Under the pieces are notes generated by a model. It was not told the origin of the DNA, did not search any database, and was given only the letters and a program-made list of their open reading frames with translations. 52,540 nt of DNA from Pseudomonadota bacterium (GTDB lineage Bacteria > Pseudomonadota > Gammaproteobacteria > Steroidobacterales > Steroidobacteraceae). The stretch covers positions 1 to 52,540 of the forward strand of contig JAFEDS010000018.1 in NCBI GenBank assembly GCA_018241505.1, read 5' to 3'. Shown piece by piece: positions 12,202 to 32,237 of this stretch (its first letter is position 1; each line of letters opens with the position of its first letter). The position numbers were made by a program, and so were the translations under genes.

Positions 12202-13329
12202 TCAGCCCGACAGGGCGCGCGAGTTCTTCCGGTCGCGGAAAATTAGCGGCTGCTCAACCACCTTCGCCGGCGCTTCAGGGGTGCTCGCCCTTTCCACCAT
12301 CTCCGTGACCAGGTGATGGTGCGGCGACAAGTCGCAAACGGGGTCCGCGTTGTCGGGGTCCCCTGTCAGCAGGTACGCCTGGCAGCGGCAGCCACCAAAG
12401 TCCTTCGCCTTCTCGGGGCAACTGCGGCAAGGTTCCTTCATCCAGCTATCGCCGCGATAGTGGTTGAAGCCGGGCGACTCACGCCAGATCCACTCAACCG
12501 AGGCGTCTTTGACGTTGGGAAAGCTGAGTCCGGGAAGCGTTTTGGCGGCATGGCAGGGAAGCGCTGTGCCGTCCGGCGTCACCGTCAGAAAAACCGATCC
12601 CAGGCCGTTCATACAGGGCTTCGGCCGGCGCTCAAAGTAGTCAGGCACTACAAACAGAACGCGCATCTTGTTTCCAACACGCTCGCGGAAGCGGTTGGTG
12701 ACTTCCTCGGCACGGCGCATTTGCTCCCGGCTCGGCAGCAGCCGCTCGCGGTTGTGCCAGGCCCAGCCGTAGTACTGGGTGTTGGCCAGCTCCACGTATT
12801 CGGCGCCCATCGACTCCGCCATGCCCAGGATATCCTGCACATGGTCGATGTTGAGACGATGCAGGACCACGTTGAGTACCATTGGGTACTCGTACTGCTT
12901 GATGAGAGCGGCCACTTTCGACTTCAGCTCGAAGGTACGGGTGCTACTGAGGAAGTCGTTGACCTCGCGGGTGCTGTCCTGGAACGACAGTTGAATGTGG
13001 TCGAGGCCGGCCTGTTTCAGGGCGTGGATGCGGGTTTCGGTGAGGCCGACGCCGGAGGTGATGAGGTTGGTGTAGTAGCCGAGGGTGTGCGCCTCGCCAA
13101 CAATTACCTCGAGGTCGTCGCGTGTGAGCGGCTCACCCCCGGACAGGCCTAGTTGGACCGCACCGAGCTCACGGCCTTGCCGCAACACTCGGAGCCAGTC
13201 GGCGGTGGACAATTCCTGCTCTGTTTTCGCGAAGTCGGTCGGGTTGTAGCAGAACACGCAGTGCAGGGGACACGTGTAGGTCAGCTCGCAGAGCAGCCAC
13301 AAGGGCGGCCCCGGGTTGCTCACGCTCAC
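12202..13329 (-). CDS. pqqE: PQQ biosynthesis radical SAM enzyme PqqE
   Basis: Radical SAM enzyme that forms the carbon-carbon bond between Glu and Tyr side chains of PqqA, the first step of PQQ formation, working with the chaperone PqqD. The 375-residue protein has the CxxxCxxC cluster site at C20/C24/C27 (CPLHCVFC), the LSGGEPL glycine motif, and a C-terminal SPASM region with many cysteines (CRSCPEK, GGCRCQAYL, VCDLSPHH). The start is ATG at 13329, overlapping the pqqD stop by four bases. It is the last gene of pqqABCDE. Confidence 0.97.
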   Translation of the reverse strand: MSVSNPGPPLWLLCELTYTCPLHCVFCYNPTDFAKTEQELSTADWLRVLRQGRELGAVQLGLSGGEPLTRDDLEVIVGEAHTLGYYTNLITSGVGLTETRIHALKQAGLDHIQLSFQDSTREVNDFLSSTRTFELKSKVAALIKQYEYPMVLNVVLHRLNIDHVQDILGMAESMGAEYVELANTQYYGWAWHNRERLLPSREQMRRAEEVTNRFRERVGNKMRVLFVVPDYFERRPKPCMNGLGSVFLTVTPDGTALPCHAAKTLPGLSFPNVKDASVEWIWRESPGFNHYRGDSWMKEPCRSCPEKAKDFGGCRCQAYLLTGDPDNADPVCDLSPHHHLVTEMVERASTPEAPAKVVEQPLIFRDRKNSRALSG

Positions 13330-13598
13330 GACCGAATCTCCAGCCAGCGCTTTTCCAACGCCATGGTCACAAACGCCTGCACATCCCTGTCGAGCCCAGT
13401 AGTAACAAAGGTGCTTTCGAGGTCACTGACAATATCGGCAATCGTCCGCACCCCATCGCAGCGCTTCATGATCTCGCCCGCGCTGCCGTTCAGCTTGACC
13501 ATGCCTTCCGGATATAACAACACGTGCGCCTGCTGCGCGGGCTCCCACTGCATCCTGAACCCACGTCCCAAAGCCGGCTTGGAATCGGCGGCGATCAT
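13326..13598 (-). CDS. pqqD: PQQ biosynthesis peptide chaperone PqqD
   Basis: Small RiPP recognition protein (90 residues) that binds the PqqA peptide and presents it to PqqE. The family pattern is visible: [23 protein letters not shown], then [20 protein letters not shown] and a C-terminal [15 protein letters not shown]. It is a separate gene rather than fused to PqqC or PqqE. It overlaps both pqqC (upstream) and pqqE (downstream) by four bases, so translation of the three is probably coupled. Confidence 0.95.
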
Positions 13599-14335
13599 CG
13601 CTCGCCTCGCGGCGAGGGGGTAGCGGCGGACTGCGGGTCAACGCCGTACCGCAATGCCATTGCATCGTTCATCTGCCACAATACATCCAGTTTGAACTGC
13701 AGGATCTCCAGGGCGCGCTCCTGCGCAGCGCGAGTGTTGGAGAAATAGTCGAGCGTGACCGCGAGCCCGAATTCGACATCGCGGCGTGCCAGACTCACCC
13801 GGCTCTGAAAATAGTGCAGACCGGCCGAATCGATCCACGGGTAGTGTTCCGGCCAGTTCGCCAGCCGCTGCTTGTGAATCTCCGGTGCAAACAGCTCCGT
13901 CAAGGAGGCGCAGGCAGACTCCTGCCACGGCGAGCGACGCGCGAAATTGACATAGGCATCGACTGCGAACCGCACGCCCGGTGCGACATCGACGAGGCTT
14001 TCAACGTGCTCGCGAGTCAGGCCCGTGGCTTCCGCCAGCTTGATCCACGACTCGATGCCGCCCGGATCGTCACCATAACCGTCGTGATCGAGGATCCGCT
14101 GCACCCACGAGCGGCGTACGGCGCGGTCGTTGCAATTGGCCAGAATCGCCGCATCCTTGATGGGAATGTTGATCTGATAATAAAACCGATTCGCCACCCA
14201 GCCGCGGATCTGCGGCACCGTGGCGCGGCCTGAATTCAACATCACGTTGAACGGATGGTAGATGTGATACGCACGGCCCTTCTCCCGCAGCCGTTGCTCA
14301 AACTCCTCGCGACCCCACGGGGCGGACTCGGTCAC
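13595..14335 (-). CDS. pqqC: Pyrroloquinoline-quinone synthase PqqC
   Basis: Cofactor-free oxidase that performs the final ring closure and eight-electron oxidation producing PQQ. The product is 246 residues from the GTG at 14335, which overlaps the pqqB stop as GTGA; an ATG at 14359 would extend it into pqqB and is less likely. The family opening [20 protein letters not shown], the [10 protein letters not shown] segment, [15 protein letters not shown] and the [18 protein letters not shown] loop are all present. It belongs to the TenA/PqqC all-helical fold. Confidence 0.96.
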
Positions 14336-15252
14336 AGCTCGATCTCCATTCCATCCCACGCCACCTCGACGCCGCGGCGTGCCAGCTCGCGCGCCTGCTC
14401 CGAGTCCTCATCGAGGATGGGATTGGTATTGTTGATGTGTATCAGGACCTCGAGGGTGTCGTGCGGCAGCTTGGCCAACCACTCGAGCATGCCGCCCGGC
14501 CCGCTTTGGGGCAGGTGGCCGATGTCGCGTGCATGCTTCTTCGAAGCACCCAGCCGGATCATTTCATCGTCCGTCCAGAATGTACCGTCGACCATCACGC
14601 AGGCGGCTGATTGCATCGCCTGCCAGACCCGTTCATCCATCGCACCGAGCCCGGGTGCGTATACCGCTGAGCGTCCTGACACGTCATCCGTGATCACCAG
14701 CGCCAGGTTGTCACCCGGAACCGGCTTGTCCCGATTTGGCGAGTAGGGCGCGGGTTTGCCAGGGACCGCAATGGCGCGCCAACTCACACCGCTCACGCCG
14801 CTGATGGCAAACGGGCTGCCGGCGAGATCGATGCGTTGCCGCTCAACTCCACAGAAGTGCCCGAGCACATTCAGGATCGGATTACCGCAGGTCAGGTCGG
14901 CGTAGGTACTGTCGGTGCACCAGATCGGCCAGGGACGCGTTGCCTCGCGCAACATGTACAGGCCTGTTGTATGGTCAACCTGGCCATCCACCAACACAAT
15001 CCCGGTAATGGCGCAATCGCGCAGCGAGCGGCCAGGTTGAAAAGCCGGGTTGGCCTGCATTTGTGCCGTGATGTCGGGCGACACGTTGATCAGCGCCCAA
15101 CCGGCGGCATCGCTGCCGCGCACGGCAATCGAGGACTGGGTGCGGGGCCTGGCGCGCACGGTCCCGTTGCGCAGACCGGCGCAGTTACGGCAGTTGCAGT
15201 TCCACTGCGGAAAACCGCCGCCCGCGGCGGACCCCAGCACTCTGATTTTCAT
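14332..15252 (-). CDS. pqqB: PQQ biosynthesis protein PqqB
   Basis: Metallo-beta-lactamase-fold protein of PQQ synthesis (306 residues); it is thought to hydroxylate the cross-linked Glu-Tyr dipeptide. The signature start [20 protein letters not shown] and the CNCRNC cysteine site (residues 19-24) are clear, followed by [10 protein letters not shown] and the C-terminal [15 protein letters not shown]. The start ATG at 15252 is unambiguous. It lies 87 bases after pqqA on the same strand with a hairpin between them, and overlaps pqqC. Confidence 0.97.
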
Positions 15253-15283
15253 AGCGTCAACGGCCGGGGAAGAGGGGAATGAG

Positions 15284-15310
15284 ACGCCGCCCGCTGACGC
15301 GGGGCGACGC
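15284..15310 (-). promoter_or_regulatory. GC-rich hairpin between pqqA and pqqB
   Basis: On the - strand the transcript can fold GCGTCGCCCCGC against GCGGGCGGCGT with a four-base loop and one bulge. No T tract follows, so it is not a classic terminator. A hairpin between pqqA and pqqB would fit the need for excess PqqA peptide by slowing or processing the transcript; that role is inferred from position. Confidence 0.45.
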
Positions 15311-15339
15311 CATTCGATCTAGTCTCGAACGATGGTCAA

Positions 15340-15414
15340 TCAGCGATTGCTGATGTACATCGTGATTTCCATGCCATAACGCATGTCGACGGCTTCTGGG
15401 GTTTCCCACTTCAT
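15340..15414 (-). CDS. pqqA: PQQ precursor peptide PqqA
   Basis: A 24-residue peptide that supplies the Glu and Tyr carbons of PQQ. It begins MKWETPEAVDMRYGMEI and ends TMYISNR. The conserved Glu16 and Tyr20 in the ExxxY motif, cross-linked by PqqE, are both present. An AGGAG ribosome site lies eight bases before the ATG at 15414. It opens the pqqABCDE operon and is divergent from the sensor kinase gene starting at 15576. Confidence 0.95.
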   Translation of the reverse strand: MKWETPEAVDMRYGMEITMYISNR

Positions 15415-15512
15415 GCTGCAATCTCCTGAAAGGATGTGTGGCCAAAATCGATCGTCCCCCTGATCATCCGCGCCCCGTGCCCGCGCCCATAGGGGATGTT
15501 CTTGAATCGGGC

Positions 15513-15529
15513 CTCATGATTTTCATGAG
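15513..15529. promoter_or_regulatory. Palindrome in the pqqA / sensor kinase divergent region
   Basis: CTCATGA-TTT-TCATGAG is a perfect seven-base inverted repeat with a three-base centre. It lies 99 bases upstream of pqqA and 47 bases upstream of the chosen kinase start. It is a candidate operator for the neighbouring NarL-type regulator or another dimeric factor. Binding is inferred; only the symmetry is seen. Confidence 0.45.
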
Positions 15530-15575
15530 CGTGGGCGCAGCCCCTGGGCCCGACCGGGGCGGTACACTCACCCGC

Positions 15576-16922
15576 ATGAAACTGCGCACCCGGCTGAACT
15601 CGATTGTGGCGGGCCTGACAGCGACGTTCGTCATTGTCCTGATCGCGGCCGAGATCAACGACACCCGTTCGTCGGTGAACGAGGAAATCGAGGCCGCCAA
15701 CCGGGTCGGCGCCCAGCTCCTGGGACGCCTGGCGGCCATTTACTCCCGGGAAGGCGACGCGGATACGGTCCGTCAGTTCCTGGTCCAGCTCGGGCATGTA
15801 CGGGCGAATGACCTGGTTCTGCGTGCGCCCAACGGGGAGGTGCTGTACCGGTCGCCGGGCGCGACCTACAAAGCGGGCCGGGAGGCGCCGGCGTGGTTTG
15901 TAAGGCTCCTGGAGCCATCCATTGCGATCAGAACGTTCGGTCTCAGGGGCGGCGTCCAGCTCGCCGTCACGGCGAACGCCTCCCGGGCGATCCTGGACGC
16001 CTGGGATAATTTTAAGAAGCTGTTTGCGATCGGCGCCGTGATGCTGGTGCTGGTGAACGGCCTGGTTTTCTGGCTCGTCAACCAGGCGCTTGCTCCATTT
16101 CCGGTCATTGTGACGGGCCTGAAGCGCCTGGAAGAAGGCGACCTGGCCTTCCGGTTACCGGTGCTTGCAGGATTCGAGGCACACAGCATCGGGTCGGCGT
16201 TCAACCGCATGGCCCAGGCCGTGCAAGACAAGGTGCAGGCCGAGCGCAAGGCAATTGAAGCGGAGACGCGACTGGAGGAAGGGCGGGAGCTGGCGGCTCT
16301 CGTGGAGCAGCGCATCGAGGAAGAGCGGCGCTTGATTGCGCATGAGCTGCACGATGAATTCGGTCAATCGGTGACGGCCATCCGCTCGCTCGCGATGGCG
16401 ATCGTGACGCAGGCACCCAACCCGGCCACGGGGGATACGGCGAAGTTGATTGCGGATGAAGCGGGGCGCTTGTATGACGCCATGCATGGCTTGATTCCCC
16501 GCCTGGTGCCGCTGTCTCTCGACACGCTGGGGCTGGCGGACACGCTGGAAAATCTCGTGCGCGACTGGCAGCGCCGTTATCCTGACGTGCAGTTGTCAGC
16601 GCACAATGAGGTATCCGAGGTGTTAGGTCCGACGGTTACTTTGACAATCTACCGGGTCGCGCAGGAGGGTTTGATCAATGCGCTGCGCCATGCACAGCCG
16701 ACCCGGGTGGAGATCGCCCTGAGCAGCGACCACGAGCAAATCACTCTCACCGTGACGGATGATGGCGTGGGGCTCCCCAAGGACTGGTCGCGCCCCGGAC
16801 ATTTTGGTTTGCGCGGTCTCGCTGATCGCGTGGAGCATCTGGGCGGGCGGTTTACTGTTGGCAATCATGCGCCGCAGGGGGCGCGTTTGACCGCCAGGAT
16901 TCCCTTGATGGCGGAAGCATGA
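15576..16922 (+). CDS. MoxY-like NarL-family sensor histidine kinase
   Basis: Membrane sensor kinase of 448 residues from the ATG at 15576; an earlier ATG at 15438 adds a Pro/Gly-rich stretch with no signal character. Order: TM1 (about 8-28), a periplasmic region that resembles the LapD/MoxY N-terminal domain, TM2 (LFAIGAVMLVLVNGLVFWLV), HAMP, a HisKA_3 box with phospho-acceptor His259 in HELHDEFGQ, and an HATPase domain with DDGVGLP and GLRGLADRV. The four-base overlap with the response regulator makes an obvious pair. Being divergent from pqqA, it probably controls pqq or quinoprotein genes, like MoxXY; this is inferred from context. Confidence 0.88.
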   Translation: MKLRTRLNSIVAGLTATFVIVLIAAEINDTRSSVNEEIEAANRVGAQLLGRLAAIYSREGDADTVRQFLVQLGHVRANDLVLRAPNGEVLYRSPGATYKAGREAPAWFVRLLEPSIAIRTFGLRGGVQLAVTANASRAILDAWDNFKKLFAIGAVMLVLVNGLVFWLVNQALAPFPVIVTGLKRLEEGDLAFRLPVLAGFEAHSIGSAFNRMAQAVQDKVQAERKAIEAETRLEEGRELAALVEQRIEEERRLIAHELHDEFGQSVTAIRSLAMAIVTQAPNPATGDTAKLIADEAGRLYDAMHGLIPRLVPLSLDTLGLADTLENLVRDWQRRYPDVQLSAHNEVSEVLGPTVTLTIYRVAQEGLINALRHAQPTRVEIALSSDHEQITLTVTDDGVGLPKDWSRPGHFGLRGLADRVEHLGGRFTVGNHAPQGARLTARIPLMAEA

Positions 16923-17554
16923 TCAAAGTCCTGCTCGCCGACGATCATGCGGTGGTGCGCACCGGCTTCCGGTTGCTGCTGCAGTCGCAATCCGACATCA
17001 GTGTCGTCGCCGAGGCTCACTCAGGCGAGACTGCCTGCCAGATGTATGCCGACTGGCTGCCGGATGTTGTAGTCATGGACCTGGGGATGCCGGGGATGGG
17101 CGGGCTCGAAGCCATTCGCCGTATCCGCGCCCGCAATCCGGCGGCCCGTGTGCTGGCACTGTCGGCGCACGATGACCCCATGCATGCACGCCGGGCCCTG
17201 CGTGAAGGTGCGTTGGGGTTTCTCTCCAAGCGCACGGCTCCGGAGGTGCTGATTGAAGCGATTTCGGCGCTCGCCGCGGGCCGGCGCTACATTGATCCGG
17301 GGCTCGCGCAAAAGTTGGCGCTGGCGGAAATTGAAGGCGCGGCGCGCTCACCCATCGAGCAGTTGTCCGAGCGGGAGTTTGAGGTGTTTATCCGCCTGGC
17401 CGGTGGGGCCACCGTACAGAAGATTGCGGATGACCTGAAGCTGTCGGCTTCGACCATCGGCACGCATCTCTACAACATCAAACAGAAGCTCGCCGTGGTC
17501 AACCAGTCCGAGCTCACGCTGTTGGCCATAAGACACGGACTGATCGAGGCCTGA
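16919..17554 (+). CDS. NarL/LuxR-type response regulator (MoxX-like)
   Basis: Two-component response regulator, 211 residues. The receiver domain (1-120) has acidic residues ADDH, the phospho-acceptor Asp54 in MDLGMPGMGG, and the conserved lysine in FLSKR. A LuxR-type HTH (about 145-205) shows LSEREFEVFIRLAGG and IADDLKLSASTIGTHLYNIKQKL. Its ATG overlaps the kinase stop (ATGA). The cognate kinase is immediately upstream. It converges with the MxaD-like gene, leaving only three bases between stops. Confidence 0.95.
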   Translation: MIKVLLADDHAVVRTGFRLLLQSQSDISVVAEAHSGETACQMYADWLPDVVVMDLGMPGMGGLEAIRRIRARNPAARVLALSAHDDPMHARRALREGALGFLSKRTAPEVLIEAISALAAGRRYIDPGLAQKLALAEIEGAARSPIEQLSEREFEVFIRLAGGATVQKIADDLKLSASTIGTHLYNIKQKLAVVNQSELTLLAIRHGLIEA

Positions 17555-17557
17555 CGG

Positions 17558-18088
17558 TTATTTGCTGAACATCTTCTTCAGGTTATCCAGGCCGCCCTGG
17601 TACACGCTGTTGATCAACTCGAGGGCCGCTGCGTCGTTTTCACCTTCCGGTGGCGTGTCCGAGGTGCTCTTACGCTTGAAGTTGCCCACCCAGGTAACAT
17701 GCGACCCGCCGTTGGGACCGGGCGTTACCGTGATGTGCGAAACGTAGTCGCGCAGCGGCAGTGGCGATTCGATGATGCGGTATTTGTAGGTGTGTTTCGC
17801 GTCGTCGAAGGCCAGCAGCTCTTCGGTAAATGACGGACCGTCCTTGACGGTCAGCTTGCGCACCGCACCCACCTTGTTGTTCTCGCCCTTCTGGATCTCG
17901 TCAGCGGCGAAGCCGGGGTGCCACTTGTTGAGTGAATCGAAGTCCTTCACCGCATTCCAGACCGTATCGACCGGGGCGGTGACATTGACGGATTTGACGA
18001 CTTTGAGGGTCTTGGGCGCGTCGGCGAATGCCGCGCTGCCCGCCAGCGCCACGACCCATGAAGCAACGGCTGCGACTGCTATTTTCAC
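17558..18088 (-). CDS. mxaD: MxaD-like periplasmic SRPBCC protein
   Basis: Exported START/SRPBCC-fold protein (176 residues). MxaD of methylotrophs is periplasmic and aids electron transfer between methanol dehydrogenase and cytochrome c. Pattern matches to that family include SVNVTAPVDTVWNAVKDF, KWHPGFA, LTVKDG, ITVTPGPNGG and a C-terminal INSVYQGGLDNLKKMF. The start is taken at GTG 18088, preceded by an AGGGGG ribosome site and giving a clean signal peptide ending AFA-DA; an upstream ATG at 18133 would place 15 residues before the signal. It follows the DUF1684 gene on the same strand. Its presence beside pqq and mxa genes supports a quinoprotein role. Confidence 0.78.
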   Translation of the reverse strand: MKIAVAAVASWVVALAGSAAFADAPKTLKVVKSVNVTAPVDTVWNAVKDFDSLNKWHPGFAADEIQKGENNKVGAVRKLTVKDGPSFTEELLAFDDAKHTYKYRIIESPLPLRDYVSHITVTPGPNGGSHVTWVGNFKRKSTSDTPPEGENDAAALELINSVYQGGLDNLKKMFSK

Positions 18089-18129
18089 GGTGGTCCCCCT
18101 GCGGTTGACTGGCCCGAATATAACGTAAA

Positions 18130-19062
18130 TCAAACGCCGCCGTGCCCATTCCCGTAGGCTTTTTCGCCGGCCTCGATCCGCACCGTCAGTTTGTTCTGTT
18201 CTGGTGGCAGTGGGCAGGTGGCGAAATTGTTGAACGCGCAGGGCGGATTGTAGGCCTGGTTGAAATCCACCCGCACAGTGCCCCGGGAAGGCAGGGGCGT
18301 GTGGAGGAATCGCCCGCCACCGTAGGAGCCCTTACCGTTGGTGCGGTCGCCGAACATGACAAACAATGTTTGATCACTCGGGCTTTCCAGTACCGCATCC
18401 AGCCGGTATTGCTGGCCGTCCTTGCTGAACACCAGCGCGCCCGGACAATCCATCTCCTGCTCGAGACCCAGTATGTTGATGATTGTGATGTGGCGGTGCG
18501 GTTCGTAGGGCTCGAAGCGTGCATCGAACACCCAGTCGGTGAGCACTGGAAAGTAGTTGATCGGCACAAAGTCCCGGCGCCGTGCGCTGGCGACATCCCG
18601 AACCCGGACGCCGACTTTTCCCGAGCGCTCGATAATGAAGAAACGTAAAGGCCCGCTGGACACGACGGTCGGCTCGCCCTGGCTGTCCATCACCATATCG
18701 ATGCGCGAGACCGGCTGGCCGCCGTGCGTGATGCGGCTGCCGCGATTGGCTGTGAAGTGCACACCGCTCTCGTCCCACCTGAACGTCCCTGCCTCGGGGG
18801 CGAGCGCGGGATGGTCCAGCACGAGGCGGTTGCCGCGGGCCCGGCCGAAGGTATTGTCGCCCTTCTCCAGCCAGAACAGGCCAACTAAAGTCAGCCAGCC
18901 CGTGTCGCTGGTCAGTTCGGCAACGCGAGCGGACCGCCATTGGTCGACGGCTTGCTGTTCGGCGGCGGCATCCACGGGAAAGCGCGTTCCGGCGGCCGGC
19001 TCCGTGGCGGCGGCTCCCGCGGCCACCATCAACGCGCCCACGAACGCTGCGATTCTGGTCAT
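18130..19062 (-). CDS. DUF1684 family exported protein
   Basis: Protein of 310 residues with a signal peptide (MTRIAAFVGALMVAAGAAA). The DUF1684 pattern is visible: W..R..ELTSDTGWLTLVGLFWLEKGDNTFG near residue 50, YFPVLTDWVFDARFEPYEP in the middle, and the C-terminal VDFNQAYNPPCAFNNFATCP. The family has no settled biochemical function that I can state. The frame is open far upstream but the true start is ATG 19062, with an AGGG site seven bases before it; the rest lies under the M20 gene. It is divergent from that peptidase with a 42-base gap and lies 41 bases before the mxaD-like gene. Confidence 0.87.
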   Translation of the reverse strand: MTRIAAFVGALMVAAGAAATEPAAGTRFPVDAAAEQQAVDQWRSARVAELTSDTGWLTLVGLFWLEKGDNTFGRARGNRLVLDHPALAPEAGTFRWDESGVHFTANRGSRITHGGQPVSRIDMVMDSQGEPTVVSSGPLRFFIIERSGKVGVRVRDVASARRRDFVPINYFPVLTDWVFDARFEPYEPHRHITIINILGLEQEMDCPGALVFSKDGQQYRLDAVLESPSDQTLFVMFGDRTNGKGSYGGGRFLHTPLPSRGTVRVDFNQAYNPPCAFNNFATCPLPPEQNKLTVRIEAGEKAYGNGHGGV

Positions 19063-19104
19063 ACTATTGCCCTGCAATAAAAGCATGTCCAGGGGGATGA
19101 TTGC

Positions 19105-20526
19105 ATGTATCGACGTCCTTTTGTATCGGCCGCGGGCGCATTGCTGCTGGCCGGGGCCTGTCATGCCGATACGGATGCGGGCTCCAATGCATTGGCTCAC
19201 GATATCTTCAAGGAGCTGATTGAGATCAACACGACCGAGTCGGTGGGCAGCGTGACCACTGCGTCGGAAGCGATGGCGAAGCGCCTGCGGGCGGCGGGGT
19301 TTTCCGACAGCGATATCCAGATTGTCGGCGACAACCCACGCAAGAAAAACCTCGTAGTGCGCCTGCACGGCTCGGGCAAGCACAAACCTGTGCTGTTGAT
19401 CGGCCATCTGGACGTGGTTGAGGCACGGCGGGAGGACTGGACCACCGATCCCTTCAAGTTCGTGGAAAAGGATGGCCGCTTCTATGGCCGCGGTACCCAG
19501 GACATGAAGAATGGCGATGCCATCATGGTGTCGACCCTGATTCGGCTGAAGAAGGAGGGTTTCGAGCCCTCTCGGGATATCATCCTGGCCCTGACCGCGG
19601 ATGAGGAAAGCGGCGATTCGAACGGTGTGGAGTGGTTGTTGAAGAACCGCCGCGACCTCGTCGATGCGCAATTCGTTATCAACCACGATGGCGACTCCAT
19701 TACCTCCGAACACGGCAAGCCGCTGTACTTCGAAATGGACGGCACCGAGAAGGTGTATGCGGACTACCTGCTCACGGCGACCAATCCCGGTGGCCACAGC
19801 TCGCTGCCCGTGCCCGACAATGCGATCTATCACATCACGGGGGCGCTCGACCGCCTGGCCCACTACGAGTTTCCTTTTGAGCTCAACAGCGTCACGCGCG
19901 CCTACTACGAACGTCAGGCGACGCTCGAGAGTGGGCAGCGGGCCGCCGACATGAAGGCGATACTCCAGACTCCGCCGGATCCCAAGGCAGTGGCACGCCT
20001 GTCCCAGGATACAGTCGACCATTCACTGATGCGCACAACTTGTGTTGCTACACGGTTGCAGGGCGGGCATGCCAACAACGCACTGCCACAGCGTGCCACT
20101 GCCAATGTAAACTGCCGCATATTTCCGGGGCATTCGCCGGAGGAAATTCGACACGCTCTCATCGAAGTGTTTGCGGATCCGGCCATCAAGGTACAGTCCT
20201 ATGATGCGAAGGGTGTTGTGGTTGACAAAGCGTCCGACAAGCGAGGCTATCCACCCCCTCCGTTGATTCCAGAAGTGATGAAACCGCTCGATACGCTCGT
20301 TGCGCAAATGTGGCCGGGTCTGAAGGTCATTCCCGCCATGTCGGCGGGTGCGTCCGACGGTGTTTATACGAGCGCCGCGGGGCTGCCAACCTATGGCATC
20401 GCGGGCATTGCAATAGACAAAGACAACATCCGGGCCCACGGACAGGATGAAAACATCGGCATTGAATCGTTCGACAAGGGCAACGAGTTCTTCTACCGCT
20501 ATATGAAGTTGATGACATCCCATTGA
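19105..20526 (+). CDS. M20-family metallopeptidase, exported
   Basis: Zinc-dependent exopeptidase/amidohydrolase of the M20/M28 clan, 473 residues, with an N-terminal signal peptide ending near AGACHA. Metal-site motifs are all present: His101 and Asp103 in LLIGHLDVV, Asp133 in GRGTQDMKNG, the Glu167/Glu168 pair in ADEESGD, an Asp in INHDGDS, and His445 in RAHGQDENIG. The central dimerisation domain starts at the GGHSSLP stretch. Its location indicates secretion to the periplasm and use of peptides or N-acyl amino acids, but the substrate is unknown. Its stop overlaps the region in which the next gene starts. Confidence 0.92.
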   Translation: MYRRPFVSAAGALLLAGACHADTDAGSNALAHDIFKELIEINTTESVGSVTTASEAMAKRLRAAGFSDSDIQIVGDNPRKKNLVVRLHGSGKHKPVLLIGHLDVVEARREDWTTDPFKFVEKDGRFYGRGTQDMKNGDAIMVSTLIRLKKEGFEPSRDIILALTADEESGDSNGVEWLLKNRRDLVDAQFVINHDGDSITSEHGKPLYFEMDGTEKVYADYLLTATNPGGHSSLPVPDNAIYHITGALDRLAHYEFPFELNSVTRAYYERQATLESGQRAADMKAILQTPPDPKAVARLSQDTVDHSLMRTTCVATRLQGGHANNALPQRATANVNCRIFPGHSPEEIRHALIEVFADPAIKVQSYDAKGVVVDKASDKRGYPPPPLIPEVMKPLDTLVAQMWPGLKVIPAMSAGASDGVYTSAAGLPTYGIAGIAIDKDNIRAHGQDENIGIESFDKGNEFFYRYMKLMTSH

Positions 20527-20534
20527 GTGCCGCG

Positions 20535-21107: not shown

Positions 21108-21183
21108 GAGTAATTGGGGCAATGCGTCAACTGTGGGGCGTTGCACAGAATTATGTCTGCAGGGTGGGCGCATAATCGGGCCC

Positions 21184-22581
21184 ATGCAAGACAAGGGTCC
21201 GCAAGACGAGGGACGGCTGGTGTCTGAGCTGGCGTCACGCGTTGGCACACTGGGCGTTGAGCTCGCGGATGTGGCCGGCAACCTCGACGAGGTGACACAG
21301 CGAGTCACCAACCAAGCGGGGCAGTTCAAGGAGCTGCAACGGGCCGCGGATACCATGGTGGCTGGAAACCGCGAAATCGATCGTGCTGCCAAGGAGGCGC
21401 AGCAGGCTGCCTCCACGGCCGGCACCGAAATTGCCGAATCCCGCACTCTCATTGTCGGGGCCGTACAGCACATTGCCGACTTGAGCGGTGCAGTGGGTCA
21501 CATCGAGGAACGACTCGGCTCTTTCAGCGCACTGCTGCGGCAGATCGGCGGTGTGGCGACCGCCATTGAGCGGATTGCCAAGCAGACTCGACTATTGTCC
21601 TTGAATGCGGGCATCGAGGCGGCGCGTGCGGGTGAGGCCGGGCGCGGCTTTGCGGTCGTTGCCGGTGAGGTGAAGAGCCTCGCGGAAGAGACACGCACCG
21701 CGACGGATCGGATCGGCGAGATTGTGCGATCCCTCGGCGGCCAGATCGAAGGGCTGATCAACGAGAGCAACGAAGCAACCAAACATGCGGGCCATGCCGG
21801 CGCCGGCGCCGAGAAGGTGCAGGGTGTCATCATCCGCGCGGACGATGCATTCAACACGGTCGGCCGGGAGATCGATGCGATCGCGCAGTCGGCGACCGAT
21901 AACCTGCGTGCGTGCGATGCGGCGCTCACCCAGTTGGGCGATCTGGCCGGCGGCGTGGAGCATTCATCGAGCAACCTCAAAAGTGCCGATCAGCGCATAG
22001 AGGGCCTGCTGGCACTCAGTGAAACGTTGATTGCTTTTATTGCCGAAAGCGGGGTCGAAACCGCCGACACGCCCCTGATACGGCTGGGTGTCGATACGGC
22101 TGCCCGGATCTCGGCTGAGTTTGCAGGCGCGGTCGAGCGTGGCGAGATCACGATGGCGCGGCTGTTCGATGAGCGTTACCGGGAGATTCCCGGTACCAAT
22201 CCGAAGCAGTTCATGACCGACTACGTGCAGTTCACGGACCGGGTGCTGCCACCCATCCAGGATCCGGTGCAGAAGGCGGATCCGCGCATCGTGTTTGCGG
22301 TTGCGTGGGCAAAGGGCGGGTTCCTGCCGACGCACAATCCCAACTACTGCAAGCCCCAGGGCAAGGATCCGGCCTGGAATGCGGCCAATTGCCGCAACCG
22401 GCGGCTGTTCAATGACCGCGCCGTGCAGAAGGTCGGCGCCAATACCAAGGCGTTCCTGTTGCAGACCTACCGCCGCGACATGGGCGGTGGCAAGTTTGTG
22501 TTAATGAAGGATCTGTCCGCGCCTATTTTGGTGAATGGACGGCACTGGGGAGCCTTCCGGATCGGCTTCCGCCACGCCTGA
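21184..22581 (+). CDS. Soluble methyl-accepting chemotaxis protein
   Basis: Chemoreceptor-type signalling protein of 465 residues with no transmembrane segment. The hairpin-tip signature is intact around residues 132-175: [20 protein letters not shown], then [17 protein letters not shown], flanked by long heptad-like coils. The final 130 residues form a separate globular domain containing [24 protein letters not shown], which I do not recognise; similar C-terminal tails occur on other cytoplasmic receptors. The start ATG at 21184 is preferred to an upstream GTG/TTG. Its 3' end overlaps mxaL on the other strand by 59 bases. No other che genes are in the window. Confidence 0.88.
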
Positions 22582-23650
22582 GCGACACGGGCGAGAAGCG
22601 CGCGGCGAGCAACACCAGCGCCAGCAGCGCGGGAATCCAGTAAAGGTCGGTGCGTGCCTGCTCGCGGCGCGCAAACCTCTTATCCAACATCGCGCGCGCA
22701 ATCGTTTCCGGGCTGTTCAGGTGCAGGTAGCCAAATCCAACCTGGTGCGCCACCTCCTGCAGATGCGGTTCGCGCAATGAGGACAGGTGCTCGGCACCGC
22801 GGATCTTCGAGTTCTGGATGATGTCGCCGGGCTGCATGACTTCATCCGCGCGCCAGAATCCCACCCGATTGCCATCGTCGTCCGTCTTCGGAATCGGGCG
22901 CGGCACGTAGCCGCCCGCACCGACCAGCCAGCCGCGGACCTGGCCCGCCTTCAGGTCATCGAACATCGGCAGTATATTGGTCGGGTCGAGGGGCGGCGCT
23001 TCCTGCCCATCGGTGACGAAGATGACGTTGGGGTTGGTTCCAAGTTGCTTCGCGGCCCGCATCGACCAGTAAACGCCTTTGGTGATTTCACTGGCGTTTT
23101 CCCAGCGCATGCTGCCGTCGACCTTGGCGAGCGAGCTCAGAAGATCACCGTAGTTCTCGCAGACCTCCACGGGCGCGAGCAGAATCAAAGTGCGGTAACC
23201 CGCGAATGCGCCCCAACCAACTTTCGAGCCGCACGGTAACTCACGCAGCGCACGCCTTGCCGCGTCCCGCGCGAATTGAAGGCGACTGACTGGGGTGTTC
23301 CCCACATCGTAGTCTTCGACGTCCATGCTTTGCGTGATGTCGAAGATGACGAGACTTTCGTAGGTGTCGTGTTTCAGGGGGATAGGGGGGACAAAGAGGG
23401 CGACCAGCAACAACAGTAACGCCAGGAGAATGGCGCGGCCGTCGGCGTCTAGGGCGCTTCGGGCCCAGGTTAGAGGGGCTGATTGGACGCGGCTGGCGTA
23501 CGGCCGCGCGCTTCCGTTGGTGCCTGCAAGGCCCTCGGGGTTGCTGGCGGCGGGCGCCTCCGGTTGGCCTCCGGCGTTGCGTGCGGCGGGCACCCCCGTT
23601 TCGGCTGCGGCCGTCGCGTTGTTCGATATTTCGGCGCCGGGGGCGTTCAC
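22523..23650 (-). CDS. mxaL: MxaL-like VWA-domain membrane protein
   Basis: Von Willebrand A-domain protein of the mxa maturation set; in methylotrophs mxaACKL are needed to insert calcium into methanol dehydrogenase. The 375-residue product has an Ala/Gly/Pro-rich N-terminus of about 70 residues, a TM helix ([17 protein letters not shown]), a VWA domain with a MIDAS motif DITQS ([15 protein letters not shown]) and a C-terminal helix ([17 protein letters not shown]). The start is GTG at 23650, overlapping the mxaK stop (GTGA). It is last in the mxaRSACKL block. The extra N-terminal stretch could be cytoplasmic and disordered. Confidence 0.82.
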
Positions 23651-24201
23651 GGCAAGTCGATCTTGGCGCCCTGGACGGTGCTCATGGCATGTTCAGAATG
23701 CACCGGCGCCTGGTTGCGTTGGAGGATCGGGTCGTCGTACTCAGGTGACAGCCACAGCGCCCGTTCCAGGTTGTATCGCGCGTCCCAATCGCCTGGGTTA
23801 CTGCGCAAAGCATCGCGGTAACTTTGCTTTGCCAGCTCAATGAGCGGCAACGCGCGCTGTGCTTCTCCCGGGCCATTCTTCAGCGCCTCCCGCATGTTGA
23901 GGTTGCCCAGGTCGTAGAGAGCCGGAAGCCTCACGTCGTCAGGTGCGTCCAGCAGAGCCTTGTAGGCCTTCAATGCGGCGTTGAATTTCCCGGCCCTGGC
24001 CAGACTGAGTGCCTGAGCCAGTTGAGCCTGAGGCACGGGCGAATCGACCGTGCTGTTGGCGGTCGTCGCACCCTTGCCGGCGATGGCAATCGCCGCATTG
24101 ATGCGTTGAGCATAGTTGAGCTGCACGGCGTACCAGGTGGCCACCGCGCCGAACAAAGACGCTGCGATCCCAAAAGACAGGTGAACTGTACGGCGCCTCA
24201 T
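23647..24201 (-). CDS. mxaK: MxaK-like membrane-anchored protein
   Basis: 184-residue protein with one N-terminal TM helix (LSFGIAASLFGAVATWYAVQL) and a TPR-like periplasmic part (QALSLARAGKFNAALKAYKAL; ALYDLGNLNMREAL; YRDALRSNPGDWDARYNLERAL). This matches MxaK by order and by its LGN..R.AL and NPGDWDARYNLERAL patterns. The start is ATG 24201, overlapping the mxaC stop (ATGA). Its position between two VWA proteins is the same as in methylotroph mxa operons. Confidence 0.8.
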   Translation of the reverse strand: MRRRTVHLSFGIAASLFGAVATWYAVQLNYAQRINAAIAIAGKGATTANSTVDSPVPQAQLAQALSLARAGKFNAALKAYKALLDAPDDVRLPALYDLGNLNMREALKNGPGEAQRALPLIELAKQSYRDALRSNPGDWDARYNLERALWLSPEYDDPILQRNQAPVHSEHAMSTVQGAKIDLP

Positions 24202-25211
24202 GTCCAACTCCTGAGCGCAAGCGAACGGCCCAACAGAAGCAGCAAACAACAGATCGCCGCCGCGGCCAGGAAGCGGCGGCTGTAGTCCTGGCGCGGGACT
24301 TCCTCGAGGAAGTCGAGCGGAAAATTCTGCTGCCGGCCGACGTCGGCCACCGCTTTCTGCAAGTCTTCCGGCACCTCGGCCTGATAGGCCCGGTAGGGTG
24401 TGCGCAGCGACTGGAAGAACCTGTGCAGTGCCATTTCCGGGGCGTTAGTGCGGTCAGGCTCGCTGTTGTCCAGTGTTGGCGCGTTGTAGGAGCGCAGGTA
24501 GATCCAATACAACGCAATCCGATTGCGTGCCAGGCCGGCCAGCACCTTTTGTTTGGTCGCCTCGTCGAGATAGGCACCGCCGTCCGACACGAGCAGGATG
24601 ATGCGGCTGCCGGAGTAGGCCCGCCGATCGAATTCGGCAATCGCAGCCAGCAGCGCACGACCGACTTCCGTGTTGGCCAGGCCACGGCCGATGTCGGCCG
24701 CGGCGATCCCGGCTTGTACCACCGCGTCATGCTGCGTGAATGAGACGACCGACAGCGGCTTCGTGCTGAAGAACATCAAAGCGAACCGGTCATCCGGCCG
24801 CTCAGCCACAAACTTCGCGAGCAGATCTCGGGCTACTTTGGCTTTCGGTTGGCCGCGAGCCAGGTGGTGAATCAGCAGGCTGCGATCGATCTTGCGCCAG
24901 TCGCTGGGGAGCATGTGATCGTCCATGCTGCGGCTTCTATCCATGAGGACGAGAATTTCTGCTCCGCGGCCCACTCGCGCCACCTGCGTTTGTGGCTTGC
25001 CGAGTCCGGCCAACGCGATGACAGTCGTGAAGATCGCAACTGCGGCGAGGATCCGCCACAGCCAGCCCGCTATTTGGCCCAAGGGGTCTTTAGGTAGCCA
25101 TGGAGCGTATGAAAACGGCAGGGTGTCGCGGCGCCGGCGCAGCAGAGGCAATATCGCCAGTGGTAAAAGTAGCAGCGCCCAGGGGTGGGCGAAGTCGAAG
25201 CTCGTAATCAC
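24198..25211 (-). CDS. mxaC: MxaC-like VWA-domain membrane protein
   Basis: 337-residue BatA/MxaC-type protein. It begins with the typical FAHPWALLLLPLAILPLLRRRR, has a second TM helix (ILAAVAIFTTVIALAGLG), a VWA domain with the MIDAS motif DRSRS (LVLMDRSRSMDD) and ILLVSDGGAYLD, and a last TM helix (FLAAAAICCLLLLLG). It probably acts in the membrane with MxaR, MxaA, MxaK and MxaL in metal loading of a PQQ dehydrogenase; this is inferred from the family. The start is GTG 25211, overlapping mxaA's stop by four bases. Confidence 0.83.
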   Translation of the reverse strand: MITSFDFAHPWALLLLPLAILPLLRRRRDTLPFSYAPWLPKDPLGQIAGWLWRILAAVAIFTTVIALAGLGKPQTQVARVGRGAEILVLMDRSRSMDDHMLPSDWRKIDRSLLIHHLARGQPKAKVARDLLAKFVAERPDDRFALMFFSTKPLSVVSFTQHDAVVQAGIAAADIGRGLANTEVGRALLAAIAEFDRRAYSGSRIILLVSDGGAYLDEATKQKVLAGLARNRIALYWIYLRSYNAPTLDNSEPDRTNAPEMALHRFFQSLRTPYRAYQAEVPEDLQKAVADVGRQQNFPLDFLEEVPRQDYSRRFLAAAAICCLLLLLGRSLALRSWT

Positions 25212-26188
25212 CGCTCGTGCTGCTTTTCTATGCGGCGGAGAGTGGCCGCCAGGCCGCTGAGTGCCAGGGGTTCGGTGGCGCCGCCCCCAAAGAATCGCAG
25301 GTTGGACTGGCTGTAGAACTCCTCAATGGCGCCGCGTTGTGACTCGAAGTGTGGCGCTTGTTTGAACAGCGCCGGCAGCGTGCTCGTTTGTAGCGCGCGG
25401 CCGGCGGTCCGGTCGAAGGCGCGGTGAAGCGCCAACCAGGCGTCAGCATTGTCCTCGCCGATCTGGCGTATTTCTCGCTGCGCCCGTGCAAACGGTTGGT
25501 TTCTTGCTGCTCGCACAGACCGAATCAACCACCACGTGAACCAGGCTGCGACGATGACTGCAAATGCGGTCAGCCATGCCTCCAACTCGCGCCTGAGTGT
25601 CGATGTCGGCAGCATTGGCGCGGGGTGGTCGGCCCGCAACTCCTGCAGGCCGCCTTTGGCGAATACCGCGTGCGGCGTCAGTGGGGTGACGCTGACGGGC
25701 CACACGGGCACCTTGAGCACACCGCCGGTCTTCGACCTGAGGGTTACTTCTGGAAGGTTCACTGTCACCAACGCTTGTGGTGCGTTGACTAGCTGGTATT
25801 GCATGACTAACCAGCGGCGGTTGTCATCTGAACGCTGAATCGTCGATGTACGGCGTGAGAACCAGAGGCTTGCGCGCTCCAGCGGGGGCAGTCCTTCGGG
25901 TTGAAAGCTCTGATCCAGGAGTACCCGTTGGGTGAGAGTGTCGCCGAGCACGTAGCCGAAGGGACGGGGTTGATCGACTGCGGGGGTCGTGTCGGAGCCG
26001 GGAGCCGCGCCCGTTTGGGCTGGCGCTACGCCGCGCGCGACCGTGGGCGCTGCCCGTGGTTCAACACCACTTGCGGGCTGTGCCCCGCACACGCGCATCT
26101 GACCACTCGTGAGCAGCATCAACTCGATAACGACCGCGAACGAAGCGGTCGCGCGTCGACTGTTGTCGCTCCATTGAAGAAACCTCAC
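25208..26188 (-). CDS. mxaA: MxaA-like protein
   Basis: 326-residue exported and membrane-anchored protein. The N-terminus carries a signal-like segment, then a Pro/Ala-rich linker, and the family signature PRPFGYVLGDTLTQRVLLDQ around residue 75. A TM helix (WLTAFAVIVAAWFTWWLI) splits it from a C-terminal soluble part containing DAWLALHRAFDRTAGRALQ. This layout agrees with MxaA, required with MxaC, MxaK and MxaL for calcium incorporation into methanol dehydrogenase. The start is GTG 26188, overlapping mxaS (GTGA). Weakly conserved as a family, so the call leans on order and the FGYxxGD motif. Confidence 0.78.
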   Translation of the reverse strand: MRFLQWSDNSRRATASFAVVIELMLLTSGQMRVCGAQPASGVEPRAAPTVARGVAPAQTGAAPGSDTTPAVDQPRPFGYVLGDTLTQRVLLDQSFQPEGLPPLERASLWFSRRTSTIQRSDDNRRWLVMQYQLVNAPQALVTVNLPEVTLRSKTGGVLKVPVWPVSVTPLTPHAVFAKGGLQELRADHPAPMLPTSTLRRELEAWLTAFAVIVAAWFTWWLIRSVRAARNQPFARAQREIRQIGEDNADAWLALHRAFDRTAGRALQTSTLPALFKQAPHFESQRGAIEEFYSQSNLRFFGGGATEPLALSGLAATLRRIEKQHER

Positions 26189-27039
26189 GCAGCGACCTCA
26201 AAGAAATATTGAGACATCGCCTCACTATCGAATCGGTCAGTCACGTAGAACGGTCGCATGGCCCGCATTGCGAACAACTGATCCAACTCAGCCCGGCGAA
26301 CCGCAGCAGCCTGCACCCATCGCTCGCGCATGCGTGCCCGCATCCACAATGTGCGCTGCGCACCCGACTCCACATCCCGAAGCTGGGCCAACCCATCGTG
26401 CGCCGGTGGGCGGATCTCCGCAGTGTCCCAGACGACGACGGGTACCACGAAGGACTGAGACAGTGAATCCAGGGCAATGTTCAATCCAGCCAATGGCCAG
26501 TGAAAGTCCGAAACCAGGAACACCAGCCCCTTGCGCCCCGCAAGGTGTTGAATCGCATCGACGAGACCGGTCACATCTCCGCCAGTTCCGCCGGTGCTGC
26601 GCAGCAGAGCTGCCATCGTTTCGCCCATGCCGCGGCTGACCATCGCGGGTACGAAGAGGTCGGTTCGTTCACTAGAGTCGAACGCCAACATACCGAGCGC
26701 GTCGCCTACCTTGAATGTGCTTTGCCCCAATGCCTCGACAAACTCAGCGGCGACATCCAACTTGCTGCGACGGGATCCGAAGCTCATGGAGGTGGAAACA
26801 TCCACCACTACGTGCACTGCGATGCTGGCTTGTTGGCGATTCACGCGTACCAACCATTCTTGTTGGATATTGCGCAAGCTCGCGCGCAAATCGAGGCGGC
26901 GCGGGTCGGGGCGGTCATACAGGCGCATGTGCGACACAAATTCCTGTCCGGCCCCCAGGCTCGATCCACGATGTGAGCCCGGGCGCCAGCCACCGATCCT
27001 TTGGGGCAGTCGATAGTGAAACTCGCGGTGCTCGCTCAT
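26185..27039 (-). CDS. mxaS: MxaS-like DUF58 protein
   Basis: DUF58/VWA-like protein of 284 residues. The opening FHYRLPQRIGGWRPGSHRG and the DFVSH-type segment (GQEFVSHMRLYDRPDPRRLD) are typical of DUF58 proteins paired with MoxR ATPases. A MIDAS-like motif DVSTS is seen in VVVDVSTSMSFG. It overlaps mxaR by one base (TAATG), indicating coupled translation and fixing the start at ATG 27039. It probably links the AAA+ MoxR ATPase to the membrane VWA proteins downstream. Confidence 0.85.
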   Translation of the reverse strand: MSEHREFHYRLPQRIGGWRPGSHRGSSLGAGQEFVSHMRLYDRPDPRRLDLRASLRNIQQEWLVRVNRQQASIAVHVVVDVSTSMSFGSRRSKLDVAAEFVEALGQSTFKVGDALGMLAFDSSERTDLFVPAMVSRGMGETMAALLRSTGGTGGDVTGLVDAIQHLAGRKGLVFLVSDFHWPLAGLNIALDSLSQSFVVPVVVWDTAEIRPPAHDGLAQLRDVESGAQRTLWMRARMRERWVQAAAVRRAELDQLFAMRAMRPFYVTDRFDSEAMSQYFFEVAA

Positions 27040-28058
27040 TAGCGTGGCGTGGGAACCTTTTCGAGTAGCTGCGAAATCAGCTCATCCGCGATTTGAGCGC
27101 GCCGCAATTCGTAGACGGGTGTGAAAAATATGCGGTGTCCGAGGGCGGGTTGAGCCATCGCGCGGATGTCATCGGGCGTCAAATAGTCCCTCCCGGACAG
27201 CCACGCAACAACCCGTGCGGCGCGCGTGAGAGACATCATTCCGCGCGGACTCGCTCCGGCTAGAATCAACTTTTCCATATCGACGCCTTCCAGTCGTACT
27301 CCTACGCGCTGAGGAGCATGCGTTGCATCCCACAGGTCCAACACGTATCGCTCGAGTGCTTCGCTGGTTCGCACGGAACGCTGAATGGCTGCCCCTACCT
27401 GATTCAACGACGGCCAGTCCAGAATGTCCGGCGCCACCCGCTCGAGCAACTGATCCACATCATGAAATGCCGGATCGAAGACCAGTTGCCGGCGGATTTC
27501 GGGTTCCGTCGGCGTGGGCATCCGCAGCTCGAGCATGAATCGATCGCGAGCGGCCGAAGCAAGCTCGAAGGTCTCTTCCTTTTCGACGCGATTGCGATCG
27601 GCGAACACCGTCATGTGCGGAAACCGATGTTCGCGATTGAACGCGGATACGGTTCGCTCCGCCATTGCGCGTAGCAGAAGGGATTGCACCTGCGGACGCG
27701 CGCGATTGATCTCGTTGAAGAAAAAGGTAACGAGGCGTTCGCCGTGGCGAAGCAAAGGTCCAGGTTCGATTCGCGGCTTACCCTCTGCATCTACGTATGT
27801 GTGATAGACGAGATCGCCGGGCATCAAGTCCACTGTGCCCTCGACACGCTCAAAATCACCACCGATGGTACGGGCGAATGCACGGAGGATCGTGGTCTTT
27901 CCCACGCCGACATCGCCCTCGAGCAGCACGTGACCGCGCGCAAATAGCGCCACGTTGATGAGCCTGATTGTAGGCTGCTGACCGACGACGGCTTTGGTTA
28001 CTTCCTCTTCCACGCGTAGTGCGCGGGCCCGCCAATCTTCCAATTGCGCTTCTGTCAT
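27039..28058 (-). CDS. mxaR: MoxR-family AAA+ ATPase (MxaR)
   Basis: AAA+ ATPase of 339 residues, first gene of the block. The Walker A motif GDVGVGKTT is at 48-56. The Walker B-equivalent FFFNEINRA (112-120) has Asn where MoxR proteins usually have Asp. The ARDRFMLEL segment and the C-terminal lid (LAGASPRGMMSLTRAARVVAW) follow. MoxR ATPases act as chaperones for metal or cofactor insertion together with VWA proteins. The start ATG 28058 has an unassigned 100-base upstream gap with a strong inverted repeat. The order mxaR-S-A-C-K-L is as in methylotroph operons. Confidence 0.9.
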   Translation of the reverse strand: MTEAQLEDWRARALRVEEEVTKAVVGQQPTIRLINVALFARGHVLLEGDVGVGKTTILRAFARTIGGDFERVEGTVDLMPGDLVYHTYVDAEGKPRIEPGPLLRHGERLVTFFFNEINRARPQVQSLLLRAMAERTVSAFNREHRFPHMTVFADRNRVEKEETFELASAARDRFMLELRMPTPTEPEIRRQLVFDPAFHDVDQLLERVAPDILDWPSLNQVGAAIQRSVRTSEALERYVLDLWDATHAPQRVGVRLEGVDMEKLILAGASPRGMMSLTRAARVVAWLSGRDYLTPDDIRAMAQPALGHRIFFTPVYELRRAQIADELISQLLEKVPTPR

Positions 28059-32197: not shown

Positions 32198-32214
32198 TAT
32201 CGTCTCCTTAAAAG

Positions 32215-32228
32215 GTTGCGCACGCAAC
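32215..32228. promoter_or_regulatory. Probable MarR operator in hmgA divergent region
   Basis: GTTGCG-CA-CGCAAC is a perfect six-base inverted repeat with a two-base centre, lying 18 bases from the MarR start and 10 from the hmgA start. MarR proteins usually bind such compact palindromes in divergent promoters. Next to it is a tandem ATGTGCG repeat (32231-32244) that covers the first hmgA ATG. Function is inferred. Confidence 0.6.
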
Positions 32229-32237
32229 TAATGTGCG

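Follow-up and report, generated by a model that had tools for sequence, protein, structure and literature searches.

The window analyzed here is the whole 52,540-nucleotide stretch at positions 1–52,540 of one contig (C9) of the genome of a Pseudomonadota bacterium related to Steroidobacter (7.88 Mb over 46 contigs, with 93.9% completeness and 5.7% contamination), and the genes in question are those for the synthesis of pyrroloquinoline quinone (PQQ) and for the maturation of PQQ-dependent methanol dehydrogenases. On the minus strand, the window carries pqqE, D, C, B, and A (12202–15414) and, farther along, mxaL, K, C, A, S, and R (22523–28058). Between these two blocks are a kinase and a LuxR-type regulator on the plus strand (15516–17554) and a minus-strand gene for an MxaD-like SRPBCC protein (17558–18133). 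Genes for a DUF1684 protein, a peptidase (presumably of the M20 type), a small unnamed protein, and a chemotaxis-signalling-domain protein also occur there, without evident link to the system. An earlier reading of this DNA from its letters and open reading frames (ORFs), hereafter the sequence-only reading, had listed pqqABCDE, an MxaD-like gene, and mxaR-S-A-C-K-L with a MoxY-like kinase/regulator pair between the blocks, and this content was confirmed by the ORFs, profile matches, and homology (Table 1). An assembly error was set aside as the source of the layout because an identical layout is found in the genome of a relative (G005).

Table 1. Genes of the PQQ synthesis and mxa blocks, with the evidence for each name.
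Feature	Position	Strand	Evidence
pqqE, radical SAM PQQ biosynthesis protein	12202..13329	-	TIGR02109 518.8 bits, cut-off 381
pqqD, PqqA peptide chaperone	13326..13598	-	TIGR03859 111 bits, cut-off 46
pqqC	13595..14335	-	Place between pqqB and pqqD, kept in relatives
pqqB	14332..15252	-	TIGR02108 384.7 bits, cut-off 245
pqqA, 24-aa precursor, C-terminal EITMYISNR	15340..15414	-	ORF and sequence
MoxY-like sensor histidine kinase	15516..16922	+	HAMP, HisKA_3, HATPase_c; start as called
LuxR-type response regulator, kinase partner	16919..17554	+	Response_reg, GerE
MxaD-like SRPBCC protein	17558..18133	-	Polyketide_cyc2; start uncertain
mxaL, VWA-like protein, MIDAS-type DITQS	22523..23650	-	Homology to MxaL of named loci
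mxaK, TPR-like protein	23647..24201	-	Position, homology; weak TPR match under cut-off
mxaC, VWA protein, MIDAS-type DRSRS	24198..25211	-	VWA_2
mxaA	25208..26188	-	Homology; AlphaFold model
mxaS, DUF58/VWA protein, MIDAS-type DVSTS	26185..27039	-	DUF58 78.2 bits
mxaR, MoxR-type AAA+ ATPase	27039..28058	-	AAA_3, AAA_lid_2; best PDB match 2r44

All five pqq genes are present as open frames, and PqqB, PqqD, and PqqE exceed the equivalog cut-offs of their NCBIfam models. Overlaps of 4 bases join pqqB to pqqC, pqqC to pqqD, and pqqD to pqqE, and pqqA is located 87 bases ahead of pqqB. The pqqC gene is presumed to be such from its position, and pqqA was spotted by eye from an E-x3-Y pattern that we take to mark such precursors. 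The kinase matches LapD_MoxY_N at 20.7 bits, under the cut-off of 25. The MxaD-like gene is 4.4 kb from mxaL and thus outside the coupled mxa run; its product is 38–42% identical to the protein encoded just ahead of mxaR in ten Variovorax loci.

The mxa genes form a run of six coupled genes, all open, with successive overlaps of 1, 4, 4, 4, and 4 bases, as the sequence-only reading had described (1–4 bases). For comparison, a five-row MxaL alignment was scanned against genome contigs, and the best 80 of at least 560 relatives were taken as named loci. The window MxaL is 39–79% identical to the MxaL of these 80 loci. All 75 loci that have the six genes (75 of the 80) keep them in the order R-S-A-C-K-L on one strand, which is far beyond chance; fewer than six were found in L107, L162, L165, L173, and L178. 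The metal-ion-dependent adhesion site (MIDAS) motif, read for its DxS/TxS part, is kept in every aligned locus for MxaL (80/80), MxaC (77/77), and MxaS (75/75), and MxaC and MxaS keep the fuller DxSxS form in the same numbers of loci (77/77 and 75/75). In the Pfam scan, no family was matched by MxaA or MxaL and MxaK gave only a sub-threshold TPR match, and in the NCBIfam scan MxaA, K, S, and L were left unnamed above cut-off. The window set has the marks of Mxa: the coupled order, a MoxR ATPase with three VWA-type proteins, and homology to dehydrogenase-linked sets. The AlphaFold model of MxaA, built from 56 sequences (predicted local distance difference test score 83; predicted template modelling score 0.55), combines a hydrophobic helix at the N terminus with a beta-sandwich, a long helix of which the course could be through the membrane, and a C-terminal part that is helical.

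Whole-genome searches with PF13360 and PF01011 returned no match within the window, and the closest match on the same contig is at 130749–132668, more than 100 kb from mxaR. The sequence-only reading had presented the set as one without a dehydrogenase. This description holds for the 52-kb window and fails for the genome, which encodes about a dozen PQQ dehydrogenases with these domains, including the product of a xoxFGJ triad; absence of a dehydrogenase from the organism was therefore rejected. The xoxF gene (C46:104,037–105,818) is followed by genes for a c-type cytochrome (XoxG) and a binding protein (XoxJ). XoxJ scores above the TIGR03871 cut-off, and XoxG matches TIGR03874 under its cut-off. 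The XoxF motif is TPHDEWDYDG, a D-x-D arrangement with an extra Asp two residues past the catalytic Asp, which we take to be the mark of lanthanide-type enzymes. Among solved structures, it best matches two XoxF chains, 6oc5 (930 bits) and 6dam (904 bits), which outscore the methanol dehydrogenase chain 4tqo (687 bits; presumably MxaF-type) and 4mae (669 bits; presumably XoxF2). The enzyme is a putative XoxF5-like lanthanide-type methanol dehydrogenase. Given that pqqE is 12 kb from one end of its contig and xoxF 104 kb from one end of C46, the two are at least about 116 kb apart. Upstream of the triad are a beta-propeller gene like TIGR03866 (under cut-off) and a conserved unnamed 80-aa ORF. 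Downstream (L036 4212–13277) are a glutamine-synthetase-like gene, an aldehyde dehydrogenase gene, and an iron alcohol dehydrogenase gene, which are kept in the relative G005 (L075) and do not follow xoxJ in another genus member, G078 (L073).

The calcium-type subunit MxaI (PF02315) has no match in this genome, and D-Y-A is absent from all 12 catalytic loops that were aligned from its own PQQ dehydrogenases. Among the further enzymes of this kind (L029 and L031–L038, on C14, C7, C17, C31, C46, and C6), several have D-x-D, as DYD or DWD, and several of the soluble ones show D-x-D, such that the genome may hold several lanthanide-type enzymes. One enzyme on C17 (L032) reads DYT at the aligned catalytic loop. 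Fae (PF08714) also has no match in the genome, and a Fae/tetrahydromethanopterin route is thus not indicated.

The named loci connect such sets with XoxF. The only dehydrogenase probe used for these loci was XoxF, and matches below 60% identity (L165 and the second matches in L154 and L170) were dropped from the linked count. On this basis, 44 of the 80 have a XoxF at least 60% identical in the locus DNA examined, and the other 36, some of them cut by contig ends, have no close XoxF there. The statement of the sequence-only reading that these maturation genes sit with the dehydrogenase in known methylotrophs is therefore not general, as the accessible part of a report on Methylophilaceae also indicates (PMC4109929). 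Two of the unlinked loci are from the genus members G005 and G077. Among the other 34 genomes, 33 were searched, and 30 of these encode XoxF (72–86% identity) elsewhere. The D-x-D motif was read in all 30 unlinked XoxF genes and in 41 of the 44 linked ones, the other three motifs being outside the examined DNA. In total, 76 of the 79 genomes with a set of this kind have XoxF. MxaI occurs in three of the 79, all Methyloversatilis, leaving 73 with XoxF and without MxaI; for these counts, the search covered 43 of the 44 linked loci and the calcium enzyme was probed through MxaI, with no separate search for MxaF.

The most compact arrangement is found in ten loci, all Variovorax (L112, L122, and eight others), where pqqBCDE, the kinase/regulator pair, mxaD, mxaRSACKL, and xoxFGJ all fall within 17.4–20.6 kb of the DNA examined, with xoxF partly beyond it. 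These clusters have the same genes, the same mxaR-S-A-C-K-L order, and the same kind of kinase/regulator pair as the window. However, xoxFGJ adjoins the set in Variovorax and is on another contig here; moreover, the Variovorax pqq genes are on the strand opposite to mxa, whereas in the window both blocks are on one strand and other genes intervene between mxaD and mxaL. Peristeroidobacter soli (L103; Steroidobacteraceae), the nearest named isolate among the matches listed, resembles the window in having a complete mxaRSACKL with no XoxF within 10 kb on each side and a XoxF (85% identity) elsewhere in the genome, but no pqq genes were found beside its set. In three Paraburkholderia loci (L154, L165, and L170), a PQQ dehydrogenase that is 31–33% identical to XoxF over 538 residues comes directly after mxaL. 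In another, from Paraburkholderia ultramafica (L162), only mxaK and mxaL were matched and the genome has no XoxF at E 1e-190, as if XoxF and most mxa genes had been lost together.

An association is also seen in class and genus samples. Among 370 genomes of the class that are at least 90% complete (including the window's own genome and G356, the source of L110), MxaL was found in 14 (E 1e-20), a XoxF/MxaF-type enzyme in 33 (E 1e-180), and both in 12. Thus, 12 of the 14 MxaL-bearing genomes have the enzyme, compared with 21 of the 356 others (Fisher p 2.5e-12, with ancestry ignored). A genome with the set tends to have XoxF or MxaF as well; the converse does not hold for XoxF. Within the genus (58 genomes), MxaC (E <=1e-78) is found only in the window's genome, G005, G077, and G078, and five further genomes have weak, Bat-like matches (E 1e-5 to 1e-3). 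All four carriers have a XoxF at least 84% identical, partial at a contig end in G077 (co-occurrence p 1.2e-5, with shared ancestry ignored).

Gene arrangement among these relatives is variable. G005 retains the window layout from an MFS gene through beyond the mxa genes. In G077, one contig carries pqq and the kinase/regulator pair roughly 12 kb upstream of xoxF, a different contig carries mxaRSACKL, and in two genomes of the same order (G044 and G057) mxaRSACKL adjoins xoxF in divergent orientation. The pqq, mxa, and xox modules move about yet remain in the same genomes. G005 also has a second XoxF copy (C31; L076 9961–11817; 84–85% identity) with no xoxG or xoxJ match adjoining. More distant XoxF-like enzymes of the genus (L051–L059, L078–L080, and L082) have genes for a binding protein and a cytochrome with two CxxCH motifs after them in the four loci examined; by a simple pattern, DYD was read in six of nine such enzymes, and the other three gave no pattern match.

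Sequence comparisons point to two kinds of mxaRSACKL. Methyloversatilis thermotolerans and Methyloversatilis discipulorum each have a set adjoining xoxF (DFD) and a further set adjoining mxaF (DYA), and the former is the one that the window proteins resemble more closely in both genomes. In M. thermotolerans, the identities of the XoxF- and MxaF-linked proteins to the window are 76 and 58% for MxaR, 54 and 39% for MxaS, 52 and 38% for MxaC, and 46 and 31% for MxaL. More generally, the mxaF-linked sets (Methyloversatilis L259–L261 and the class members L262–L264) share homologous genes and the same order with the window but differ in having MxaR 49–58% and MxaL 31–39% identical, a D-Y-A dehydrogenase, and a place on the other side of the tree. 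In an unrooted quick tree of concatenated MxaR, MxaS, MxaC, and MxaL (48 rows from loci, 30 of them named loci), the window's side has 32 rows, with 15 XoxF-linked, 16 unlinked, and no MxaF-linked sets, and the other side has 16 rows, with all seven MxaF-linked sets, six unlinked, and three XoxF-linked. Because the named loci were picked by similarity to the window MxaL, their tree position is enriched by design. A second unrooted tree (LG+G4 without mixture, with the long row L265 omitted) supports the split at 100/99, with a warning from the tool that long branches meet among the distant rows; in this tree, the group that holds the seven MxaF-linked rows also takes in three unlinked ones and the XoxF-linked L270. 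The mxa set of L148, from a metagenome-assembled genome named Desulfovibrionaceae, groups with Variovorax, which reflects either a misbinned contig or a transfer.

Taken together, the window probably combines a PQQ synthesis operon with a XoxF-associated MxaRSACKL set, the most likely client of which is the unlinked XoxF on C46. The basis of this reading is gene content and order, the lanthanide-type motif, the kept MIDAS-type motifs, the tree position, and the co-occurrence with XoxF; the suggestion of the sequence-only reading that the set may serve a distant XoxF-type enzyme is thus well supported by the C46 triad and the 76 of 79 genomes. We infer XoxF as the client and the kinase/regulator pair as the controller. 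In the proposed mechanism, pqqABCDE would make PQQ, and the MxaR ATPase, with the VWA proteins MxaS, MxaC, and MxaL plus MxaA and MxaK at the inner membrane, would hold or remodel apo-XoxF, such that the opened apo-enzyme lets metal and PQQ enter. The MxaD-like protein may then help the mature enzyme meet its cytochrome, and the kinase/regulator pair would control the system. According to the available portion of a study on M. extorquens, XoxF1 needs an MxaD homolog to function (PMC7391723), with which the MxaD-like gene of the window is in line. That the act of the set is metal or cofactor insertion is plausible, at slightly below an even chance. The portions seen of two other sources describe MxaACKL as calcium-insertion proteins for MxaFI (PMC6028718) and NorQD as a pair in which a MoxR ATPase with a VWA partner drives metal insertion (PMC13036017). 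NorQ/NorD resemble the window set in acting on a metalloenzyme through these two protein types, but the client and the partner set differ and the comparison is one of analogy only.

Several observations weigh against this reading, among them the use of MxaI as the stand-in for the calcium enzyme. In the genus, the co-occurrence is non-independent, and every other genome listed is smaller than those of the four carriers. G032 (77% complete) has fragments of a close XoxF and no MxaC or MxaL, and nine members with a more distant XoxF-like enzyme (55–59%) have no MxaL; both negatives include a broader profile. Across the class, all 21 enzyme-bearing genomes without MxaL stay negative with a broader 12-row MxaL profile, and two of the 14 MxaL-bearing genomes (G256 and G289) have no XoxF/MxaF at E 1e-180, with at most three candidates scored per genome. 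No XoxF was found at E 1e-190 in three of the 33 searched unlinked genomes (G083, G091, and G104, the last being that of Paraburkholderia ultramafica). The two kinds of set are also not cleanly separated, as the XoxF-linked L270 is among the MxaF-linked sets in both trees and the XoxF-linked L045 and L046 fall outside the window's side. Among published views, the parts available of a 2024 review state that XoxF does not require mxaACKLD or mxaRSEH (PMC11845868), and in the accessible text of the transposon study on M. extorquens XoxF1 the MxaD homolog is named and mxaRSACKL is not (PMC7391723).

Other explanations are less probable to different degrees. The set may serve XoxF by another act, such as membrane assembly, secretion, or cytochrome docking. 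This is rather unlikely and overlaps with the explanation above; it draws on the fact that no experiment on XoxF was found and that the metal role derives from MxaFI work (PMC6028718) and the NorQD analogy (PMC13036017), both as far as the parts seen of these sources go. However, the conservation of MIDAS-type motifs in three VWA proteins and the calcium-insertion role described for MxaACKL favor a metal or cofactor step. Maturation of other PQQ alcohol dehydrogenases in the genome (e.g., on C6, C46, or C17), instead of or besides XoxF, is a distinctly unlikely role for the set. The dozen or so candidates, several of them soluble with D-x-D, and the distant dehydrogenase after mxaL in the three Paraburkholderia loci speak for this possibility and count against XoxF as the client. 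Yet 54 of the 58 genus genomes encode proteins like the XoxF query (E 1e-3) and four encode MxaC, all four of these hold a close XoxF, and in two of the three Paraburkholderia loci there is also a XoxF on the opposite side.

That the set is left over from a calcium enzyme MxaFI since lost, and persists through inertia, is very improbable. Such a status would agree with the absence of MxaI and was proposed, in the part accessible of a 2026 paper, for the mxa genes of XoxF-only Sphaerotilus as MxaFI remnants (PMC13300288). In contrast, the six genes are all open with overlaps of 1–4 bases, the MIDAS-type motifs are kept in all aligned loci, the window's side of the tree has no MxaF-linked set and contains Sphaerotilus mobilis, and two Methyloversatilis genomes retain a separate set by mxaF. 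It is more improbable still that the set is a Bat-type AAA+/VWA chaperone that serves the envelope in general and is untied to PQQ enzymes. The MoxR-DUF58-VWA architecture is common to Bat and the window set, MxaC weakly matches Bat/VWA models far under cut-off, and the MxaL profile weakly matches BatB 3ibs. However, the genome already has a separate Bat-type MoxR-DUF58-VWA operon (about C1:404,393–412,000; L099), the products of which are only 33, 29, and 27% identical to the window MxaR, MxaS, and MxaC, compared with 76, 54, and 52% for the XoxF-linked locus L123 and 39–91% over XoxF-linked or sister Mxa sets, and sets of the window type co-occur with XoxF. Bat identity, which the sequence-only reading had named as an outcome that would overturn it, was rejected on this basis.

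The reading of the set as XoxF-associated bears on published views. Two reports on M. extorquens and Methylocella silvestris describe, in the parts seen, a decrease in mxa accessory genes or proteins where XoxF increases (PMC6414531, PMC9291206); both organisms have MxaFI and hence may not speak for XoxF-only lineages. In Methylophilaceae, the accessible text describes mxaRSACKL in strains without mxaFJGI, with further clusters elsewhere on the chromosome (PMC4109929), and by this account neither unlinked sets nor mxaRSACKL without mxaFJGI is new. These strains resemble the window in having mxaRSACKL at varied chromosomal places without mxaFI, but they belong to another family, their enzymes are of the XoxF4 type in the part available of a further source (PMC6028718), and they are set alongside by description rather than by sequence. 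No mention of a XoxF-associated group of mxaRSACKL was found in the open-licence papers covered, as far as their accessible parts go, which is weak evidence of absence. The locus belongs to a variant group, tied to XoxF, of the known MxaRSACKL kind, and this group qualifies the views that the genes are unneeded for XoxF or are MxaFI relics.

Two other features of the window are recorded in passing. At 31661–34924, a MarR-type regulator gene adjoins two genes, presumably homogentisate-dioxygenase-like and fumarylacetoacetase-like, with no relation to the PQQ and mxa genes. At 9617–10198, a gene for a small FecR-domain protein adjoins nuo genes.

Finding mxaRSACKL in a genome does not show a calcium-type methanol dehydrogenase. 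The placement of lanthanides in enzymes is an open problem, and the value of this locus is as a test of whether the machine serves lanthanide enzymes; Variovorax, with its set linked to the enzyme, offers a genetic test. A stronger proposition, which we regard as tentative and on balance unlikely, is that the window belongs to a dedicated lanthanide branch of MxaRSACKL, an ATP-driven AAA+/VWA loader of lanthanide and/or PQQ into XoxF. If true, this branch would occur in bacteria without MxaFI and would be optional, giving better loading when lanthanides are scarce; such an optional role would explain the many XoxF-bearing genomes without the set.

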